Of a stretch of DNA of 64,000 nt, positions 4,521 to 37,705 are shown one piece after another. The translations under genes were made by a program, and so were the position numbers. The number at the start of each line of letters is the position of its first letter. Positions within the stretch are counted from its first letter, which is position 1. Source of the DNA: Streptomyces sp. ICC1 (lineage in GTDB: Bacteria; Actinomycetota; Actinomycetes; Streptomycetales; Streptomycetaceae); contig NZ_CP030287.1 of the NCBI RefSeq assembly GCF_003287935.1, forward strand, positions 2,198,267 to 2,262,266. The letters run 5' to 3'. Below the pieces are notes generated by a model. It ran no database searches. It saw nothing but the letters and a program-made list of their open reading frames with translations, and was not told the origin of the DNA.

Positions 4521-4882
4521 GAGACCGCTCCCGCGCGGTCCGGGGGCCGCTCCCAGGCGGAGCCCTCCGGGTGGACGGCCTCCTCCGTGTCCACGTGCCC
4601 GAGCTTCGGGTCCGGGGCGAGCGGGCCGAGGTGGAAGACCATGCGGGCCTCGGTGTCCCCGACGTTGCGGAACCGGTGGCGCACGTTCATCGGGACGAGG
4701 AGTCCCTGGTCGGTGAGGAGCGGGTGGGCCTCGCCGTCGAGGTCGACCTCCAGCGTCCCGGCGACCACGTACACGAACTCCTCGGAGTACGGGTGGTAGT
4801 GCTCCGCGATGTGTTCGCCCGGCGCCATGACGGCCAGGCCCATGAAACCGCTGGTGCAGCCCACCGAAGTCGGGGTGAGCAC
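4517..4882 (-). CDS. whiE-ORFII: Cupin protein of the spore-pigment cluster (WhiE II)
   Basis: About 121 residues, a single cupin barrel. The metal-binding motif is present ([19 protein letters not shown], then HRFRN further on), so it probably binds a divalent metal and modifies or orients the polyketide; the role of this family in spore pigment is not established. The GTG at 4882 is the first standard start. However, homologous-looking residues (TRGGDLRA) extend upstream to a CTG at 4909 that overlaps the preceding stop as CTGA, so a 130-residue product from a rare CTG start is possible. Confidence 0.85.
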
Positions 4883-4905
4883 TGCCCTGAGGTCGCCGCC
4901 GCGGG

Positions 4906-6018
4906 TCAGCGTTCGGCGGGGGCCCGGCGGTCGGTGATCAGGCTCATGGTGTGGCGGACCGCCGACGCGGCCGCCCCGTCTTCGGACGGCACCATCAGGC
5001 GGGCGAGTACGGCCGCCTTGCGCGGTCCGCGCACGCCGAAGGCGGTCTCCAGTCCTTCGCCGTACGGGCTGCGGACGTCGATGAGGCGTACGACGATGTC
5101 GTCGCGCTGGAAGATGCTGCTGCTCACCGTGGGGGCGTCGGGGCGGGGGGCCGCGGCCTCGTCCTCCCGGGCCAGGAAGCGGGCCAGCGCCGGTCCGCAA
5201 CCGGGCTTGGCCGGGTAGAACAGTGCGTGCCTGCGTACGTCCGGGCGGTCCGCGGCGCCGGCTTCGCGGGCGGCGACGTGGTGGACGGCGGGCAGTGCGG
5301 CCCGCATGAAGAACATCCGGGCGGACTCGGGGTTCCCGAGGTCGCGGTCCTGTTCCAGGTGCGGGTTGATGGCCTCTTCCACGGCCCGCACCTCGGGCTG
5401 TTCGGAGACGTGGCGCAGCGCGGACATCAGGTCGCCGCGGACCTCCACCGTACGCACGACGCGGTTGCCGTGCATGAAGAGCGTGGTGCGGCAGAGCCGG
5501 GTGTGGCCGTCCACGTCGGCGGCCGGGGAGGCGTAGCTGGAGAGGAGGGCGGCGACGTCCTTCTCGCTGCCGGGCTTGACCGTGAAGGTCAGGGCGTGGC
5601 GGACGATGTCGGCGCCGAGCCGGGGCGATGCCTGCAGCCGGGCGCCGGTGGGCCGCTGCGCATCCTGGTAGCCGCGCCCGGTCTCGCGCAGGACGGTGTA
5701 CTTCAGCGGGCGCATGGCGCGGGCGCAGGCGCCGAGGGGGCGGACCTGCTCGGCGTGGTGCTCGCTGTTGACCCAGGCGAGGTACTGCGGGGCGCTCTCC
5801 CACTCGCTGGTGATCAGCCACTGCGAGGGGTTCTCGAAGGACTGGCAGAGCTGGTCGCTGATGTGGCCGGGTTCCGAAGCGATGTCATGGCGCAGTTGCT
5901 CGTACGCCTCGAAGAACCGCTGCTGGGCTCCTTCGTGGAGGTCCATCAGCAGGACGACCCGGAGCATGGAGCCGTCGAAGGCGGACTGTGACACCCGTTC
6001 GGACAGGGTGGTCGTCAT
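4906..6018 (-). CDS. whiE-ORFI: SchA/CurD-like protein (WhiE I)
   Basis: 370 residues. The ATG at 6018 was chosen for the AAGGAG six bases upstream; the open frame runs further but without a better site. The protein contains two ferredoxin-like (antibiotic-monooxygenase-like dimeric alpha-beta barrel) repeats, roughly residues 15-125 and 140-250, then a third weaker one. This is the family first named in the sch and cur spore-pigment clusters; function is unknown, perhaps oxidation or cyclisation. It is the first gene of the operon and is divergent from the hydroxylase gene, with 284 bp between their starts. Confidence 0.88.
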
Positions 6019-32134: not shown

Positions 32135-32716
32135 ATGGCCGGACCACTGTGGCCCCGCGCTCGGCGGGGCGGAGCCGACGAAGCACTGATCAAGTCGGTG
32201 TACGAGGAGCACGGCCACGCCCTGCTCGCCTACGCCACGCGGCTGACCGGGGACCGGGCCGCGGCCGAGGACGTGGTCCAGGAGACCCTCATCAGGGCCT
32301 GGCGCCACTCGGAAGTCCTCGTCAACGGGAAGGGTTCGGTGCGCGGCTGGCTGCTCACGGTGGCCCGCAACATCATCACCGACCGGTACCGGGCCAAGGC
32401 CGCGCGGCCGCCGGAGGTATCCGGCTCGCCGGCCCATCCGCCGGTGGAGGCGGACCATGCCGACGCCGTGGTCGACACGATGGCGGTACTGGGGGCCCTC
32501 GACCGGCTGTCCCCGGAACACCGGGACGTGCTGACGGAGTTGTACTACCGCCAGCGCAGCGTCGCCGAGGCCGCGGACACCCTCGGCATCCCGGCCGGCA
32601 CGGTCAAATCGCGCTCGCACTACGCGCTCAAGGCGCTCCGAGAGGCCTTCGGGGACGACAGACGAACGGGCGGGGCGCCCCGGCGGCCCGGCGGACTTCA
32701 GGAGGTGGTGGCATGA
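32135..32716 (+). CDS. ECF RNA polymerase sigma factor
   Basis: 193 residues. Region 2 (about 25-90: LLAYATRLTGDRAAAEDVVQ, RGWLLTVARNIITDRYR) and region 4 (about 115-175: LDRLSPEHRDVLTELYYR, LGIPAGTVKSRSHYALKALR). SigL-like. It is coupled by an ATGA overlap to a zinc-type anti-sigma factor gene, so it should be held inactive until an envelope or redox signal. The first 15 residues are basic and poorly conserved. Targets cannot be read here. Confidence 0.95.
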   Translation: MAGPLWPRARRGGADEALIKSVYEEHGHALLAYATRLTGDRAAAEDVVQETLIRAWRHSEVLVNGKGSVRGWLLTVARNIITDRYRAKAARPPEVSGSPAHPPVEADHADAVVDTMAVLGALDRLSPEHRDVLTELYYRQRSVAEAADTLGIPAGTVKSRSHYALKALREAFGDDRRTGGAPRRPGGLQEVVA

Positions 32717-33444
32717 ACCGGCAGCGGCACGAGGAGGAACTGCTCGGCCCGTACGTTCTCGGCGTCCTGGACGACGCGGACGTCCGCCGGGTCGAGGAAC
32801 ACGTGGAGGGCTGCGTGCAGTGCCGGCAGGAGGTGACCGCGTTGCGCGAGATGGAGGCGGCGCTGGGCGAGGTGCCGGCGGAGGCGTTCCTCGAAGGCCC
32901 GCCGCAGGGCGGGGACCTGCTGCTCCAGCGCACCCTGCGGCAGATGCGGCAGGAGGTCGCCGGGGCCCGCCGGCGCCGGACGGTGCTCGCCGGGGTGGCC
33001 GCCGCGGCCTCGCTGGCCGCCGTGTTCTGGGCCGGGACCCAGGTGGGCGGTGCGGACGGCGGACCCATCGCGCTGCCTCCGGTTCCGACGCCCACGGTCT
33101 CGGCGCAGCCGTCGCCGCCGGTGGGCGGGACCAAGGTGGCCTCCGCGACGGACGCGGGCACGGGCGCGCGGATGACCGTACAGGTGACGCCCGCCGCGAA
33201 GTGGGTACGGGTGCACGCGGCGGTGACGGGAGTGCGGGCGGGCGAGCGGTGCCGCCTGGTGGTGGTCTCCCGGGACGGTACGCGCACCACGGCCGGCAGC
33301 TGGGTGGTCGGCTCCGCGGAGCACGGCGAGGGCAAGGGCGCGGCGCTGGACGGTTCGGCGGCCGTGGACCCGGCGGACGTCCGGGCGGTCCTGGTCGAGA
33401 ACGAGTCGGGCAAGACGTTCGTGTCGGTCCCGGTGGCCGCGTAA
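32713..33444 (+). CDS. Membrane anti-sigma factor (zinc-finger ZAS type)
   Basis: 243 residues. The ZAS motif HVEGCVQC (His30, Cys34, Cys37) follows a helix with LLGPYVLGVLDD. A single membrane helix (about 88-108, VLAGVAAAASLAAVFWAG) leads to a Pro-linked extracytoplasmic domain (about 125-243). It binds the sigma factor encoded just upstream; the start overlaps that gene's stop as ATGA, which keeps the two at equal amounts. Confidence 0.94.
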   Translation: MNRQRHEEELLGPYVLGVLDDADVRRVEEHVEGCVQCRQEVTALREMEAALGEVPAEAFLEGPPQGGDLLLQRTLRQMRQEVAGARRRRTVLAGVAAAASLAAVFWAGTQVGGADGGPIALPPVPTPTVSAQPSPPVGGTKVASATDAGTGARMTVQVTPAAKWVRVHAAVTGVRAGERCRLVVVSRDGTRTTAGSWVVGSAEHGEGKGAALDGSAAVDPADVRAVLVENESGKTFVSVPVAA

Positions 33445-33532
33445 CGGGGCCGGGGGCCGTGCGGTGGCCCGTGCGGCCCTGGGCCCTGGGCCCTGGGCTC
33501 TCGGCCCTCGGCCCTCGGTGCGGGAACGTGAC

Positions 33533-33565
33533 GGAGCCCGGGAGCATGTCCAGCTCCCGGGCTCC
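33533..33565. terminator. Strong bidirectional terminator
   Basis: A perfect 13-bp stem (GGAGCCCGGGAGC and complement) with loop ATGTCCA. It separates the plus-strand sigma/anti-sigma operon from the minus-strand transcript that carries the tRNA-like RNAs. Confidence 0.85.
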
Positions 33566-33602
33566 AGCTTGCCACCCATTTGCGCACACCGGCGGCGTTT
33601 AA

Positions 33603-33710
33603 GAGCCGCGGATCATTTTGAGATCGACGTGTTCTGCCATTGAACTACAGCGGCACGAGAGAGCCGCCGAGGGGACTTGAACCCCCATCCGCCAATGTTC
33701 GCCCGCGCTC
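33603..33710 (-). ncRNA. Circularly permuted tRNA-like RNA B (Y RNA/YrlA-like topology)
   Basis: Read 5' to 3' on the minus strand: outer-stem strand GAGCGCGG (33703-33710); loop GCGAACAT; anticodon-stem 3' strand TGGCG (33690-33694); T-arm GGGGG-TTCAAGT-CCCCT (33670-33686); acceptor 3' strand CGGCGGC (33663-33669) plus T; linker CTCTCGT; acceptor 5' strand GCCGCTG (33648-33654); TA; D-arm GTTC-AATGGCA-GAAC (33631-33645); anticodon-stem 5' strand CGTCG (33625-33629); then 13 nt and outer strand CCGCGGCTC (33603-33611). All stems pair, with a few G-U. The T-loop and D-loop are canonical (Gly-tRNA-like D-arm), but the 3' half precedes the 5' half. RNA ends are not determined. Confidence 0.72.
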
Positions 33711-33736
33711 GGTCGATCCGGTGTTCGGCGGCGAAT

Positions 33737-33870
33737 ACTGAGACTGGAGCGAGAATCTGAGTTTGACGGGGCCGCCTCTACCGGACTTGGGCCACCCCCG
33801 CACGTGTGCGGGGGGAGGGATTCGAACCCCCACCTGACACCCCTGGATCAGCTTCAACATCAGTTTCAGC
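33737..33870 (-). ncRNA. Circularly permuted tRNA-like RNA A (Y RNA/YrlA-like topology)
   Basis: Minus strand, 5' to 3': outer strand GCTGAAACTG (33861-33870); second strand GAAGCTGA (33848-33855); TCCA; anticodon-stem 3' strand GGGGT (33839-33843); 7-nt variable loop; T-arm GGGGG-TTCGAAT-CCCTC (33815-33831); acceptor 3' strand CCCCCGC plus A (33807-33814); linker CACGT; acceptor 5' strand GCGGGGG (33795-33801); TG; D-arm GCC-13 nt with GG-GGC (33774-33792); G; anticodon-stem 5' strand GCCCC (33768-33772); GTCAAAC; TCAGATTC (33753-33760, pairs with GAAGCTGA, one mismatch); CAGTCTCAGT (33737-33746, pairs with the outer strand, one mismatch and one G-U). Same topology as RNA B, 26 nt away. Confidence 0.75.
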
Positions 33871-33886
33871 TTGCGCTCATCGCGCA

Positions 33887-33907
33887 CCCCCCGCTCGCGA
33901 CGGGGGG
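33887..33907 (-). terminator. Hairpin between the upstream gene and RNA A
   Basis: A perfect 7-bp stem (CCCCCCG and complement, loop of 7) begins 12 nt past the stop of the gene at 33920. It may be a terminator or a processing site separating the coding part from the RNA part of one transcript. Confidence 0.5.
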
Positions 33908-33919
33908 CGAATGTGGGGG

Positions 33920-34651
33920 CTACCTGAAGAGGTAGCCGAAGACCGCGTCTCCGATCCGCTGATCGGTGACCTCGGTGTTGTTCGCCTCCTCGCGGGCGAA
34001 CTTGACGGCCTGCTGGAGCTTCTCGACGCGGTCGAGGAGCTCGTTGACGCGGCGGGCGGGCAGCGCGCCGGAGAACTTCACCGTGGTCCAGTAGCCGACC
34101 GGCACGTCCTCGTAGTACACCTCGACCTGCGCCGGGTGCTTCTCCGTGGCCTCGGCCTTCACGTGGTTGCGCGGAACCTTCTTCGTGCGGATGGTCCGCA
34201 CGGGCTCCGTCTTCCAGGAGTCCGTCGAGGGGTCCAGGTTCCACGACTCGGAGGCGTCGAGCACCGGGAGCTTGCGCACGAAGGTGTGCAGGTCGGTGAG
34301 CTGCTTCTCGAGGAACAGCAGGTACGGGACGGGTACTTGGGGCAGCAGGACCGTGCCGTCGACCACCACGTCGGCGACCGCGGTCCGGTTCGCCCAGTCC
34401 TTCGTCGCGGTCACGTCGAAGAGCCGCGTCAGGGTCCCGGCGGTCGCCCGCAGGGCGTCCTCGGCCTTGACCTGCACCCGCGTGGACTCGGGCGGCAGCT
34501 GCTCGCCCTCCTCGTCCTTGGGCTGGTAGGTCCGGGAGATGCCGGCCAGCAGGGCGGGCTTCTGCACGTCCTGGTGAGCCTGGGTGAGCTCCTGGAGGGC
34601 CTTGGACTTGACGCCCTTTTCGACTGCGATGATCTGATTCAGCTTCGGCAC
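33920..34651 (-). CDS. Conserved-looking protein of unknown function beside tRNA-like RNAs
   Basis: 243 residues, soluble, no signal peptide or membrane helix. Begins MPKLNQIIAVEKGVKSKALQ with a helical N-terminus; the middle (about 85-190) is mixed alpha/beta and Trp/Val-rich (VPVPYLLFLEKQLTDLHTF, QVEVYYEDVPVGYWTTVKF). The C-terminal helix (about 205-225, RVNELLDRVEKLQQAVKFAR) looks like a short coiled coil. I recognise no TROVE, HEPN, ligase or nuclease motif. It is the only gene co-directional with the two permuted tRNA-like RNAs, which start 50 bp after its stop, so a ribonucleoprotein partnership is plausible but unproven. Confidence 0.8.
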   Translation of the reverse strand: MPKLNQIIAVEKGVKSKALQELTQAHQDVQKPALLAGISRTYQPKDEEGEQLPPESTRVQVKAEDALRATAGTLTRLFDVTATKDWANRTAVADVVVDGTVLLPQVPVPYLLFLEKQLTDLHTFVRKLPVLDASESWNLDPSTDSWKTEPVRTIRTKKVPRNHVKAEATEKHPAQVEVYYEDVPVGYWTTVKFSGALPARRVNELLDRVEKLQQAVKFAREEANNTEVTDQRIGDAVFGYLFR

Positions 34652-34699
34652 ACCCCGAACCTAACAACCGCGCGCCGCACGCACATCCGATTTAACGGG

Positions 34700-34734
34700 C
34701 GCCCGCGCCCCCTCGGGCCGAGGGGGCGCGGGCG
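34700..34734. terminator. Terminator of the P450 operon
   Basis: A perfect 17-bp GC stem (CGCCCGCGCCCCCTCGG and complement), loop GC or slightly larger, is followed in the minus direction by TTAAAT. It begins 7 bp after the CYP154 stop. Confidence 0.9.
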
Positions 34735-34740
34735 TCGGGG

Positions 34741-35976
34741 TCAGGACAGGCGGACCGGGAGGTCGAAGAGGTCGTTCTGGGTGAGGATCGGCTTGTTGCG
34801 CAGGTCCTGGGGGGACACGGCCAGGGCGAGGTCCGGGAAGCGGGCGTACAGCGCCGGGAGGGCGACCAGGGCCTCCAGGCGGGACAGGGCCGCGCCGGGG
34901 CAGACGTGGGGGCCGTGGCCGAAGGAGATGTGGCGGTTCGGGGTGCGGGTGACGTCGAACTCGCCCGCCGTCTCGCCGAACTGGGCCTCGTCGCGGCCGA
35001 GGGCGCCGAAGGAGACGATCAGGCCCTCGCCCTTGGGCAGGATCCAATCGCCGACCTCCACGTCCTCGGTGGCGAAGCGGATCAGGACGTGCGAGGTGGG
35101 GCTGGACCAGCGCAGGGTCTCCTCGATGACGTTCTCCCAGGAGACGTCGCCCTTCAGCACGAGGGCGCGCTGCTCGGGGTGGCTCTCCAGGGCGACGACC
35201 GCGTTGACGATCAGGCTGATGGTGGTCTCGTGGCCGGCGGCGACGATCAGCTGGAGGGTGTTGGTGATCTCCTCCGTGGTGAGGTGGTCACCGTCCTCCG
35301 AGGCCTCGATGAGGGCGCTGGTGAGGTCGTCGCCCGGGTTCTCGCGCTTGGACTCGACGATGCGCGAGAACAGCGCGCCGAGGTCCGCCATCATCTGCGG
35401 GACTTCCTCGGGCAGCGTCTGCGTCGAGAAGAACTTCTCGAACAGGGCCTTCAGGCGCGGGTGTTCCTCGGCGTCGACGCCCATCAGGTCGCTGATGACG
35501 TTCATCGGAAGCGGGTACGCGAACTGCGCCTTGAGGTCCACCGTCTCGCCGGCCGGCAGCGCGGCGAGCTTGTCCAGCATGCCCGTGGTCAGCGCCTCGA
35601 TGCCGGCGCGCAGCTTCTCCACCCGGCGTACGGTCAGGGCCTGCGCGACCAGGGTGCGCAGCCGGCGGTGGTCCTCGCCGTCCACGGTCAGCATCGAGCG
35701 GCCGGGGTTGGCGAGGCCGATCAGCGGCCAGTCCAGCGGGATCTCGCCGCGCTGCCAGGCGCCCCAGACGTCGATGTCCTTGACGACGCGCGGGTCGGTG
35801 AGCAGCTTGCGGGCCTCGGCGTGGCGCGTGACGGCGTACACGGTGACGTCGCCGGGCAGGACCACCTGGACCAGCGGGCCGGCGGCGCGCAGGGCGGCGC
35901 TCTCGGCGGCGAGGTCCGCGACGAAGGGGTCGAGGGTGATGGCCGCGGGGCCGGTGTGGTCGATCGGGCACGTCAT
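34741..35976 (-). CDS. Cytochrome P450, CYP154-type
   Basis: 411 residues, soluble bacterial P450. I-helix AAGHETTIS, K-helix ExxR in EETLRWSSP, heme-binding FGHGPHVCPGAAL with the cysteine ligand. The ATG overlaps the stop of the upstream P450 gene (ATGA). CYP154 enzymes of Streptomyces hydroxylate steroids, macrolides or flavonoids, and the CYP157-CYP154 pair normally ends a conservon (cvnABCD) operon. No conservon genes are present here, and no ferredoxin gene is adjacent, so redox partners must come from elsewhere. The substrate is unknown. Confidence 0.92.
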   Translation of the reverse strand: MTCPIDHTGPAAITLDPFVADLAAESAALRAAGPLVQVVLPGDVTVYAVTRHAEARKLLTDPRVVKDIDVWGAWQRGEIPLDWPLIGLANPGRSMLTVDGEDHRRLRTLVAQALTVRRVEKLRAGIEALTTGMLDKLAALPAGETVDLKAQFAYPLPMNVISDLMGVDAEEHPRLKALFEKFFSTQTLPEEVPQMMADLGALFSRIVESKRENPGDDLTSALIEASEDGDHLTTEEITNTLQLIVAAGHETTISLIVNAVVALESHPEQRALVLKGDVSWENVIEETLRWSSPTSHVLIRFATEDVEVGDWILPKGEGLIVSFGALGRDEAQFGETAGEFDVTRTPNRHISFGHGPHVCPGAALSRLEALVALPALYARFPDLALAVSPQDLRNKPILTQNDLFDLPVRLS

Positions 35977-37124
35977 CGGGTGGCTCCAAGGGCGGGGGTC
36001 GGCGTGTAGGTCACGGGAAGGGCGGTGAGGCCGCGCAGCCAGGGCGAGGGGCGGCGGGCCAGGTCTGCGGCGGGCACGGCGAGGTCGACGTCGGGCAGCC
36101 GGTCGAGGAGCACCTCGATGCCGGTGCGCGCGATGACCTCGGCGACCTCCTGGGCGGGGAAGGGGCAGCGGTGTTCGCCGTGCCCGAAGGAGAAGAAGGC
36201 GTTGTTGCCGCCGGTGAGGGCGCCGGCGTCGGTGCGCACGTGGGGGTCGCCGTTGGCGGCGCCGATCCCGAGCAGGACGAGGTCGCCGCGGCCGATGCGC
36301 TGTCCGCCGAGGTTGGTGTCGCGGGAGGTCCAGCGGCCGGCCACGTTCTGGGTGGGGGTGTCCTCCCACAGCACCTCGTTCATGGCCTCGCCGACGCTGT
36401 GCCGGCCGCCCGCGAGGGAGGCGGCGAAGCGGTCGTCGGTGAGCATGAGGCGCAGGGAGTTGCCGATCCAGTCGGCGGTGGGCTGGTGGCCGGCGGCCAT
36501 CATCACCATGAGGTCCTGGGCGACCTCCTCGACGGTGAAGCCGGCCTGGTTGGCGAGCATCCGGGAGGCCACGTCGGGGCCGGGCTCGGCCAGTTTGGCG
36601 GCGAGCAGCCCGAACATCGACTCGGCGAGGTGGCGCTGGCCCTCCAGGGCGCCCGCCCGCCCGTTGATCATGTCGTTCATGGCGGTGACGAGGCCGGGGC
36701 CCTGGGCGTCGGAGAAGCCGTAGATGCGGGCGAGGACGCGCAGCGGCAGCAGCATGGCGTACTCGCCGACGATGTCGCAGGAGCCCCTGCCGCACAGGTG
36801 GTCGATCAGTTCGTCGGCGAACCGCTCGGCGTGGCCCTTGAGTTCGAAGGGGTCGACGGATTCGAGGGCTTCGGAGATGACGGCGGCGCGTTCCCGGTGG
36901 CGTTCGCCGACGGTGTAGAGGATCGAGGGCTGCTTGCGGCCGATCATGGGGAGCAGCGGCCAGTCGGCGGGGATGCGGTCCCACTGGTTCCACAGGTCGG
37001 AGTCCCGGGAGAAGAGCACCGGGTCGCTGGTGACCTGGTGCAGTTCGCGGTAGCCGAGGACCAGCCAGGCCGGGACGTCGCCGTCGAGGACGACCGGGGC
37101 GACGGCGCCGTGGTCGCGGCGCAT
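35973..37124 (-). CDS. Cytochrome P450, CYP157-type without the ExxR arginine, N-terminus damaged
   Basis: 383 residues from the first ATG. Heme motif FGHGEHRCPFPAQ and I-helix MAAGHQPTAD are intact. The K-helix reads AMNEVLWEDT, so the ExxR arginine is replaced by Trp; this substitution is a known peculiarity of CYP157 (EQSLW in CYP157C1). Coding similarity continues upstream of the ATG (SPEHQPVYLGGPRFQTDPVE, to about 37205) with no ATG, GTG or TTG in frame before a stop. The normal start region therefore seems lost by rearrangement. The stop overlaps the CYP154 start, so the genes are coupled. Confidence 0.85.
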   Translation of the reverse strand: MRRDHGAVAPVVLDGDVPAWLVLGYRELHQVTSDPVLFSRDSDLWNQWDRIPADWPLLPMIGRKQPSILYTVGERHRERAAVISEALESVDPFELKGHAERFADELIDHLCGRGSCDIVGEYAMLLPLRVLARIYGFSDAQGPGLVTAMNDMINGRAGALEGQRHLAESMFGLLAAKLAEPGPDVASRMLANQAGFTVEEVAQDLMVMMAAGHQPTADWIGNSLRLMLTDDRFAASLAGGRHSVGEAMNEVLWEDTPTQNVAGRWTSRDTNLGGQRIGRGDLVLLGIGAANGDPHVRTDAGALTGGNNAFFSFGHGEHRCPFPAQEVAEVIARTGIEVLLDRLPDVDLAVPAADLARRPSPWLRGLTALPVTYTPTPALGATR

Positions 37125-37705
37125 CTCCCGGTACAGCTCGACGGGGTCGGTCTGGAACCGGGGGCCGCCGAGGTAGACGGGCTGGTGCTCGGGACTCGCC
37201 GCCGAAACCCGCAGATTCTTCCACAGACGCCAGCGTCAACCACACATCGTCCGCGGCTACTTCGGCGGCCCGCACGTCCGCTACGTCCTGAACGAGAACC
37301 CTTTGAGTTTCTGATCAATATGAGCGTGAAGCGCCCCGCATTGGCTGCCAAACGTCTGAGAACCGGCCGGTGCTGGGCCGGCGGTAGGTCAATGGCGACG
37401 CTGGCCGCGATGGGGATAGCGGCGGCCGGGGATTGAGCGGGCGCTGGTTGCTGCCCCTCAGTCAGGGAGCGCCCGGCCGGAACGCAGAGTTCAGCAGAGT
37501 GGGGCACCTGGGGTGCTTCGCCTGTGAATTCGGCGGTCCGGTGGTGGGGTGGCGCGAGCGTCTCGCTGTGAGAGTGTCCGGCTGCCTGAGGATGGACCAC
37601 GCAGATAATGGAAGTGATCGTCACCGCGGTGAGAATGCAGACGGCCAGCGCGCTCCGCATTCGACCATTTGCAGCGCAGAGAATCTTGAGAGGGTGGAAC
37701 GGCAC
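36944..37705 (-). CDS. Small exported protein whose frame runs on into CYP157
   Basis: A GTG at 37705 with an ideal GGAGG begins a plausible product: hydrophobic helix SALAVCILTAVTITSIICVV, then a His-rich segment (HSHSETLAPPHHRTAEF), a Cys in ELCVPAG and an Ala/Pro tail to about FTLILIRNSKG (37310). Beyond this the frame continues with low-complexity Arg/Ser sequence overlapping CYP157 coding in another frame, to 36944. The natural end was probably replaced by the same rearrangement that damaged CYP157. Probably a one-helix extracytoplasmic protein; family not recognised. Confidence 0.5.
   Translation of the reverse strand: MPFHPLKILCAANGRMRSALAVCILTAVTITSIICVVHPQAAGHSHSETLAPPHHRTAEFTGEAPQVPHSAELCVPAGRSLTEGQQPAPAQSPAAAIPIAASVAIDLPPAQHRPVLRRLAANAGRFTLILIRNSKGSRSGRSGRAGRRSSRGRCVVDAGVCGRICGFRRRVPSTSPSTSAAPGSRPTPSSCTGRCAATTAPSPRSSSTATSRPGWSSATANCTRSPATRCSSPGTPTCGTSGTASPPTGRCSP

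Follow-up and report, generated by a model that had tools for sequence, protein, structure and literature searches.

What are the two tRNA-like folds, each with its halves in reverse order, that lie close together on the minus strand of Streptomyces sp. ICC1, and to which system do they belong? We addressed this question in a window of 64,000 nucleotides, which is the whole stretch of DNA analysed here. The original prediction described two tandem, separate RNAs, each with a T-arm, pairing acceptor strands, a D-arm with GG and anticodon-stem strands, the T-half preceding the D-half. All of these elements are present on the minus strand, and the permuted-tRNA topology and the identical architecture of both copies are upheld. 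The linkers that join the acceptor strands, given as 5 or 7 nt, measure 6 and 8 nt, and the two folds, termed modules A and B, are parts of one RNA rather than RNAs of their own.

33768..33843, minus strand: module A, in the order anticodon-stem strand, T-arm, acceptor, 6-nt linker ACACGT, acceptor, D-arm, anticodon-stem strand (fixed-rule scan and coordinates; double-sided change in 7/7 acceptor pairs)
33625..33694, minus strand: module B, in the order anticodon-stem strand, T-arm, acceptor, 8-nt linker TCTCTCGT, acceptor, D-arm, anticodon-stem strand (scan and coordinates; double-sided change in 7/7 acceptor and 3/4 D-stem pairs)

The T-stem of module A (33831-33827 with 33819-33815, minus strand, 5 bp) closes the loop TTCGAAT, its acceptor strands CCCCCGC (33814-33808) and GCGGGGG (33801-33795) form 7/7 pairs, and its D-arm has GG within the loop. 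In module B, the T-stem (33686-33682 with 33674-33670, minus strand, 5 bp) closes the loop TTCAAGT, the acceptor is formed by CGGCGGC (33669-33663) and GCCGCTG (33654-33648) with 7/7 pairs, one of them G-U, and the D-arm, again with GG, stands on the stem 33645-33642 with 33634-33631 (minus strand). The anticodon stems are 5/5 paired in both modules, in module A only given a 7-nt variable stretch. Single-sequence folding of four stretches was no better than that of shuffles (z-scores of -0.73, -0.57, -0.22 and +0.28), ARAGORN called neither a tRNA nor a tmRNA in the window, where Rfam likewise returned no match for the modules at its gathering scores; the Rfam YrlA model scored 24.7 bits on module A and 22.9 bits on module B, against a gathering score of 69. 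Because of the folding z-scores, the ARAGORN result and the YrlA scores below gathering, the window sequence taken alone is weak evidence, and we judge the modules to be real on account of the comparison across loci of the gene DUF7873, which lies directly upstream. The original prediction overlooked this linked gene, as it did the single scaffold and the distribution among phages.

33920..34651, minus strand: DUF7873 (PF25283) gene, 243 aa, GTG start (Pfam E 6.3e-122)

The protein scores 406.4 bits against PF25283 (cut-off 27), which places it in this Pfam family, and its stop codon lies about 45 nt before the first scaffold helix of the RNA. The family is large, with 7612 of 7998 scored candidates in one protein search, and was found in 18 viral-contig loci and in 73 phage records (Vibrio 29, Gordonia 12, Rhizobium 12, Klebsiella 7, Serratia 6, Arthrobacter 3, Pseudanabaena 2, Rhodococcus 1 and Microcoleus 1). 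Genome contigs hold at least 576 matching stretches, of which 80 were taken for analysis, all from Streptomyces, Kitasatospora, Actinacidiphila and one “Actinobacteria bacterium”. The distribution is patchy, since 6 of 296 genomes drawn across the phylum carry the gene. The AlphaFold2 model of the protein is confident (pLDDT 92.5, pTM 0.76), and a Foldseek search with it gave no PDB or BFVD match at E<=0.001. Neighbouring reading frames in the window encode a cytochrome P450 domain and a zf-HC2 zinc finger (34741-37275, 32149-33444).

How strict is the association of this gene with the RNA? In a DNA search of 61 genomes, DUF7873 lay directly upstream of the RNA in all 29 relative loci (L002-L030); the other fetched locus, L031, was a 26-nt match in another family, without DUF7873. 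We then considered 147 DUF7873 loci from Streptomyces and relatives, plasmids and phages, with redundancy retained (L002 and L055 are the same place, as are L033 and L113, and identical stretches occur in L041/L053 and L039/L040). The scan required a T-stem, a T-loop TTCRANN, at least 6/7 acceptor pairs and a D-arm with GG and a D-loop starting with A. At least one module was present within 700 nt downstream of the gene in 145 of the 147 loci (two modules in 111, one in 34, none in 2), compared with 3/147 upstream, 0/147 on the reverse strand, 2/147 in the interval 700-1400 nt downstream and 1 match in 1470 dinucleotide shuffles. Both scan-negative loci were also scored with R1, a model of the module-B domain with 161 positions. 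One of them, L045, contains a module B that violates the D-loop rule (29.5 bits); the other, L145, has no module within 700 nt, and its only R1 match (36.9 bits) lies 2 kb downstream. In L145, a Microcoleus phage, an ordinary-order tRNA-like fold appears, by eye, to follow DUF7873 (4747-5184).

Searches with R1, whose E-values are rough, located 31 copies of the RNA (E<=1e-15) in 30 of 61 genomes, and DUF7873 was found in 32 of the same 61 (33 genes). All 31 RNAs lie on the strand of DUF7873, 138-255 nt downstream of it. The DUF7873 genomes without such a match are G051, where the contig ends (L022), and G010, with a diverged module (L159, 62.2 bits). On 28 phage or viral loci, 10 of which belong to alignment A5 (22 of 25 segments used, L010 re-cut; L027, L046 and L135 removed; L044, L049 and L052 dropped earlier), R1 reached 50 bits in 21 and gave 21-44 bits in the other seven. 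From this strict linkage we infer that DUF7873 most likely binds the RNA and is its dedicated partner. Two properties of the protein count against such a ribonucleoprotein: it is near neutral (pI 6.5, and 5.5-7.8 in 70 relatives), and by sequence it has no known RNA-binding domain.

The comparison of homologous loci joins both modules into one scaffolded RNA, composed as follows.

approx. 33531..33888, minus strand: whole RNA, in which a scaffold bears both permuted tRNA-like modules (21 homologues aligned; 10 helices that covary or are conserved)
33749..33876, minus strand: scaffold stem round module A, with helices P1 (33876-33874 with 33751-33749) and P2 (33871-33866 with 33760-33754)
33587..33723, minus strand: scaffold round module B, with helices P3 (33723-33718 with 33592-33587) and P4 (33710-33702 with 33612-33603)
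33533..33565, minus strand: G+C-rich terminal hairpin with the loop TGGACAT, the probable 3' boundary, as its sequence suggests

Four of the ten consensus helices belong to the scaffold, P1 and P2 enclosing module A and P3 and P4 enclosing module B, and each module contributes three more, namely its T, acceptor and D stems. The underlying alignment (A1) was built from 24 dereplicated loci (<80% identity), of which 21 were used, 9 of them phage or viral records (L049, L023 and L027 were left out). The covariation that had been predicted in homologues was found, with double-sided changes in 41 of 56 pairs. Paired cells amount to 96.7%, vs 77.7% in shuffles and 42-51% with partners slid by 1-3 columns, and double-change cells to 214, vs 58.6 in shuffles; on each of five measures, 0 of 500 shuffles reached the observed value. 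The scaffold contributes to this signal in all four helices, with 90.5% of cells paired and double-sided change in 1/3 pairs for P1, 95.2% and 3/6 for P2, 98.4% and 5/6 for P3, and 87.7% and 8/9 for P4. Acceptor pairs show double-sided changes in 14 of 14 cases over both modules; the D-stem of module A is invariant in the alignment and thus uninformative for covariation. Outside the alignment, the anticodon stem had 5/5 pairs in 216 of 256 modules, taking the best of five variable-loop lengths, vs 0 of 256 in a control with one strand shifted by 20 nt and treated in the same way. The anticodon-stem strands run on into P2 and P4, and the place of the anticodon loop is taken by these strands entering the scaffold.

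Module A is absent in L009, L026, L028, L029 and L160, where a short hairpin or less stands in its place and the module-B domain is kept at 115-155 bits (R1); two modules are therefore not essential. In L049, an additional stretch between P2 and module A carries GGGAATCGCTGGTGAAAGTCC, which presumably recalls a cobalamin-riboswitch box. In the homologues, a strong hairpin follows the RNA, with a loop that is often TGGATA or TGGACA despite differing stems; in the window, the hairpin at 33533-33565 has no T-tract after it and is absent from the terminator scan. Taken together, the structure, i.e. one RNA with permuted tRNA bodies on a scaffold, fixed to DUF7873, is well supported by the comparison of sequences.

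The resemblance of the modules to tRNA extends to tertiary contacts. Across 170 distinct (deduplicated) modules, U8 is kept in 169. At the tertiary (Levitt) pair 15-48, 154 modules have A-U and 10 have G-C, which gives 164 of 170 that fit vs 145.9 expected from base frequencies; G-C occurs 10 times vs 0.9 expected and G-U 0 times vs 9.1 expected, the six exceptions being five A-C and one C-U. This pair joins both halves of a module and played no part in module detection. A14 (170/170) and the T-loop were required by the scan and carry no evidential weight. When the halves of one module were placed in normal order with a neutral loop, ARAGORN called a tRNA in 184 of 184 cases, compared with 82 of 184 for halves from different loci and 12 of 65 for the D-half of A with the T-half of B; since the modules were preselected for pairing, it is these controls that carry the weight.

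The gene and the RNA recur together as a block.

33520..34737, strand not applicable: gene and RNA block recurring without the window flanks in other Streptomyces (at least 14 rows, identity 89-95%)

With a 2.9-kb query against 295 genomes of the genus, these rows, at least 14 from 13 genomes with an identity of 89-95%, start within 33511-33526 and stop within 34651-34737; among the matches listed, eight other genomes keep one or both flanks. Copies reside on plasmids of 160 kb in S. flavofungini and 1.07 Mb in S. nigrescens, and in 18 of the 80 genome-contig loci 300 nt or more of the flank match the window. Genome G549 contains two equal copies of the unit in opposite orientation (C1:26557-27773 and C1:9777540-9778756) near the ends of a 9.8-Mb contig, as expected for terminal inverted repeats. 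On the phage side, 7 of 10 named phage records have a tRNA gene no more than 2 kb from DUF7873; L144 and L145 have no tRNA gene within 4 kb, and in L146 the nearest one outside the RNA is at 3.3 kb. tRNA-model matches are present in 23 of 25 phage or viral records, and 12 of them have ten or more. On the Streptomyces side, ARAGORN found no tRNA in the window or in four plasmid loci. The Streptomyces copies would represent horizontally moving or retained versions of the unit.

Could the modules be bacterial Y RNAs of the YrlA family, acting with Ro60, as the original prediction proposed? YrlA is encoded near Ro60. The topological part of the proposal stands, because the permutation point and the order of elements are shared; membership in the family is not supported, because the YrlA pair of the source genome adjoins a Ro60 gene 2 Mb away, and DUF7873 RNA occurs in genomes and phage records that gave no TROVE match.

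C1:4372369-4374396 (L001 256-2283): Ro60 gene and two YrlA-type RNAs upstream of it, separate from the window locus

The Ro60 gene (TROVE; C1:4373614) is the only TROVE match of the source genome, about 2.1 Mb from the window locus, and the two permuted modules just upstream of it score 58.4 and 39.4 bits with the YrlA model. Modules A and B match that model at the values given above, far under gathering, and are absent from the genome-wide YrlA matches at E<=0.001. In the opposite direction, R1 gives 41.8 and 40.0 bits on the YrlA RNAs of the source genome; this is no proof of kinship, because two tandem tRNA-Asn genes score as high (42.9 bits), and common descent of DUF7873 RNA and YrlA is possible. 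The tRNA-Asn genes, identical-looking and located at C1:209818-209919 (L151), mimic a permuted tRNA, reach 44.5 bits with the YrlA model and constitute a search trap. TROVE is commoner in genomes with DUF7873 (22/32) than in those without (11/29), so that the two are not strictly independent in this sample, and 4 of 25 DUF7873 phage or viral records encode both; on the other side, 10 of the 32 DUF7873 genomes and 21 of the 25 records (some of them fragments) have no TROVE match. A clear Ro60 gene is present in just one of the 147 loci, L047, and L034 has a weak 104-aa match. On L047 (IMG/VR contig 3300026078_000021, 5001-9292), Ro60 lies about 2 kb from DUF7873 and is preceded by three further permuted modules. 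All in all, we regard a YrlA identity as very improbable. That the modules are an artefact of neighbouring ordinary tRNA genes or of tRNA remnants seems to us a negligible prospect. It would draw on the tRNA-Asn pair and on the 25 of 147 loci whose first 450 downstream nucleotides, read in native order, contain a tRNA according to ARAGORN, but covariation, pair 15-48, gene-RNA linkage and the rarity of calls when the D-half of A is combined with the T-half of B all contradict it.

The acceptor ends bear on a further explanation, namely permuted tRNA or tmRNA-like genes in which RNase P and 3' processing would open the loops and yield chargeable molecules that end in CCA. Where a locus has two modules, 74 of 79 distinct A modules carry A at base 73, and the 65 distinct B modules carry T (44) or G (21) there; C stands at base 74 in 63/79 A and 64/65 B modules, and CCA occupies 74-76 in 30/79 and 4/65, respectively. 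Distant phages also have CCA, in module A of L140-L142 and L146 (scan) and L143 (by eye) and in module B of L141, L148 and L149. The D-arm of module A in L144 and L146 reads GCGG-AATTGGTAG-ACGC, with one base different in L049, and presumably resembles that of tRNA-Leu; module B with T73 resembles, we assume, tRNA-Gly. The pattern looks as if the modules had arisen from genuine tRNAs whose ends were encoded and were later lost in part. In the Klebsiella phage LPKP23 (L146, 5013-5096), a “tRNA-Stop(tta)” is annotated inside the RNA region and probably represents misread module halves. Permuted tRNA genes, which had been offered as the fallback, are nevertheless improbable here: although rejoined halves match a cloverleaf, the modules have no anticodon loop, their anticodon stems join a covarying scaffold through P2 and P4, some linkers among the homologues are only 4 nt long, CCA is lost in most B modules, and the acceptor pairs are variable with no fixed 3-70 pair. 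It is more conceivable, though still unlikely, that the RNA acts in cis as part of the DUF7873 messenger, at whose 3' end it would stabilise the mRNA or control DUF7873, its tRNA-like folds slowing exonucleases or feeding back on the protein. This would agree with the position of the RNA, always after the gene and on the same strand, and with a sigma-70 scan, in which the interval from gene to RNA showed no promoter. A barrier, however, would not need two complete tRNA bodies with 15-48 kept, and many loci have, by eye, promoter-like hexamers (TAGGAT, TAGACT, TATAAT) immediately ahead of the RNA. In many loci these hexamers, or TACAAT, come just after the DUF7873 stop and possibly form the RNA's own promoter.

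The reading that we favour, with about even confidence, is that DUF7873 and its RNA form a mobile protein-RNA unit that shows anticodon-less tRNA bodies to tRNA-handling proteins, a function that we infer from the sequences. The DUF7873 gene is followed by one structured RNA of about 300 nt presenting two tRNA-like modules, each corresponding to a tRNA permuted at the anticodon loop, with the T-half, a short loop joining the acceptor ends and the D-half. Each module would fold as a tRNA body whose anticodon stem continues into the scaffold, as the comparison supports. Proteins that recognise the tRNA elbow and acceptor stem could then read the modules, and the bodies could serve as anchors or bait; they would be unable to decode and would offer no anticodon loop for anticodon nucleases to cut. 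The complex would most likely mimic tRNA and in this way recruit or occupy factors that handle tRNA, for which modification enzymes, RNase P, EF-Tu, PNPase and tRNA nucleases are candidates. The beneficiaries would be phages and other mobile DNA, whose tRNA arrays often house the unit, and these phage arrays make a role in infection plausible. More generally, an uncharacterised gene of soil bacteria and many phages and an RNA that stay linked across great evolutionary distance suggest an unknown protein-RNA machine that engages the tRNA machinery. We give little credence to a bolder version, in which RNase P and 3' processing would open the acceptor loops and leave two CCA-ended, possibly chargeable tRNA heads on the scaffold, a new mobile ribonucleoprotein acting on the ribosome or on tRNA supply in infection; just as doubtful is its corollary that the heads would differ, one with A and the other with T or G at base 73, on an RNA in pieces.

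A precedent for the mimic reading is YrlA, whose tRNA-like domain, according to excerpts of PMC8394870, is modified by DusA and TruB and binds PNPase; excerpts of PMC7790460 report no YrlA fragments observed when tRNAs were cleaved and propose that YrlA may inhibit the nuclease. Our searches of the literature, among the matches listed, returned no paper naming DUF7873 and no description of its RNA in work on permuted tRNA, on Y RNA, Ro60 and YrlA, or on phage tRNA-array RNAs. Permuted tRNA mimicry is known, and it is the RNA, the two-module scaffold and the protein partner that were not found in the literature searched.

Several known systems invite comparison. GOLLD and ROOL are large structured phage RNAs of unknown function, often near tRNA islands, and form RNA-only cages (PMC12286853, as excerpted). 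DUF7873 RNA resembles them as a large structured phage RNA that is often near tRNA islands, and differs from such RNA-only cages, as far as the excerpted source describes them, in its link to a protein gene; neither the window nor 12 viral loci gave a gathering match to GOLLD or ROOL, and on these 12 loci Rfam returned only ordinary tRNA gathering matches. Permuted tRNA genes of algae and archaea, as described in excerpts of PMC3978253, have the 3'-half before the 5'-half, an intervening sequence of 1-74 nt at the acceptor and sometimes an encoded CCA. DUF7873 RNA shares the order of the halves, the intervening sequence at the acceptor and the occasional CCA; those genes, on the same excerpts, yield tRNAs with an anticodon, whereas the ends of the DUF7873 modules enter a conserved scaffold and there is no anticodon. 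Two-piece tmRNA, in the same excerpts (PMC3978253), likewise takes its tRNA-like end from a permuted gene and is left in two pieces. DUF7873 RNA is like it in having a tRNA-like part from a permuted gene and unlike it in having two tRNA-like modules and the DUF7873 gene upstream, and ARAGORN found in the window no tmRNA, which would combine its tRNA-like domain with a reading frame for a tag peptide.

The closest likeness is to YrlA (RF02553). As in the YrlA model consensus and in the excerpted review (PMC8394870), which also names rsr-yrl operons, the anticodon loop is the permutation point of the tRNA-like module, T-arm and acceptor hairpin precede the D-arm, the anticodon stem leads into another stem, and the whole mimics tRNA. 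Unlike YrlA, which goes with Ro60/Rsr (TROVE, PF05731), DUF7873 RNA is linked to DUF7873, unites two modules in one scaffold, scores from below a third to about a third of the YrlA gathering score, and is present without a TROVE match. DUF7873 RNA would constitute, besides the Y RNAs, a second family of permuted tRNA mimics, tied to a different protein, whose family comprises thousands of sequences and often lies within phage tRNA arrays. Through it, the role of phage tRNA islands and of their structured RNAs becomes accessible to testing; it also suggests that permuted tRNA bodies recur as an RNA module in bacteria and are not peculiar to Ro60.
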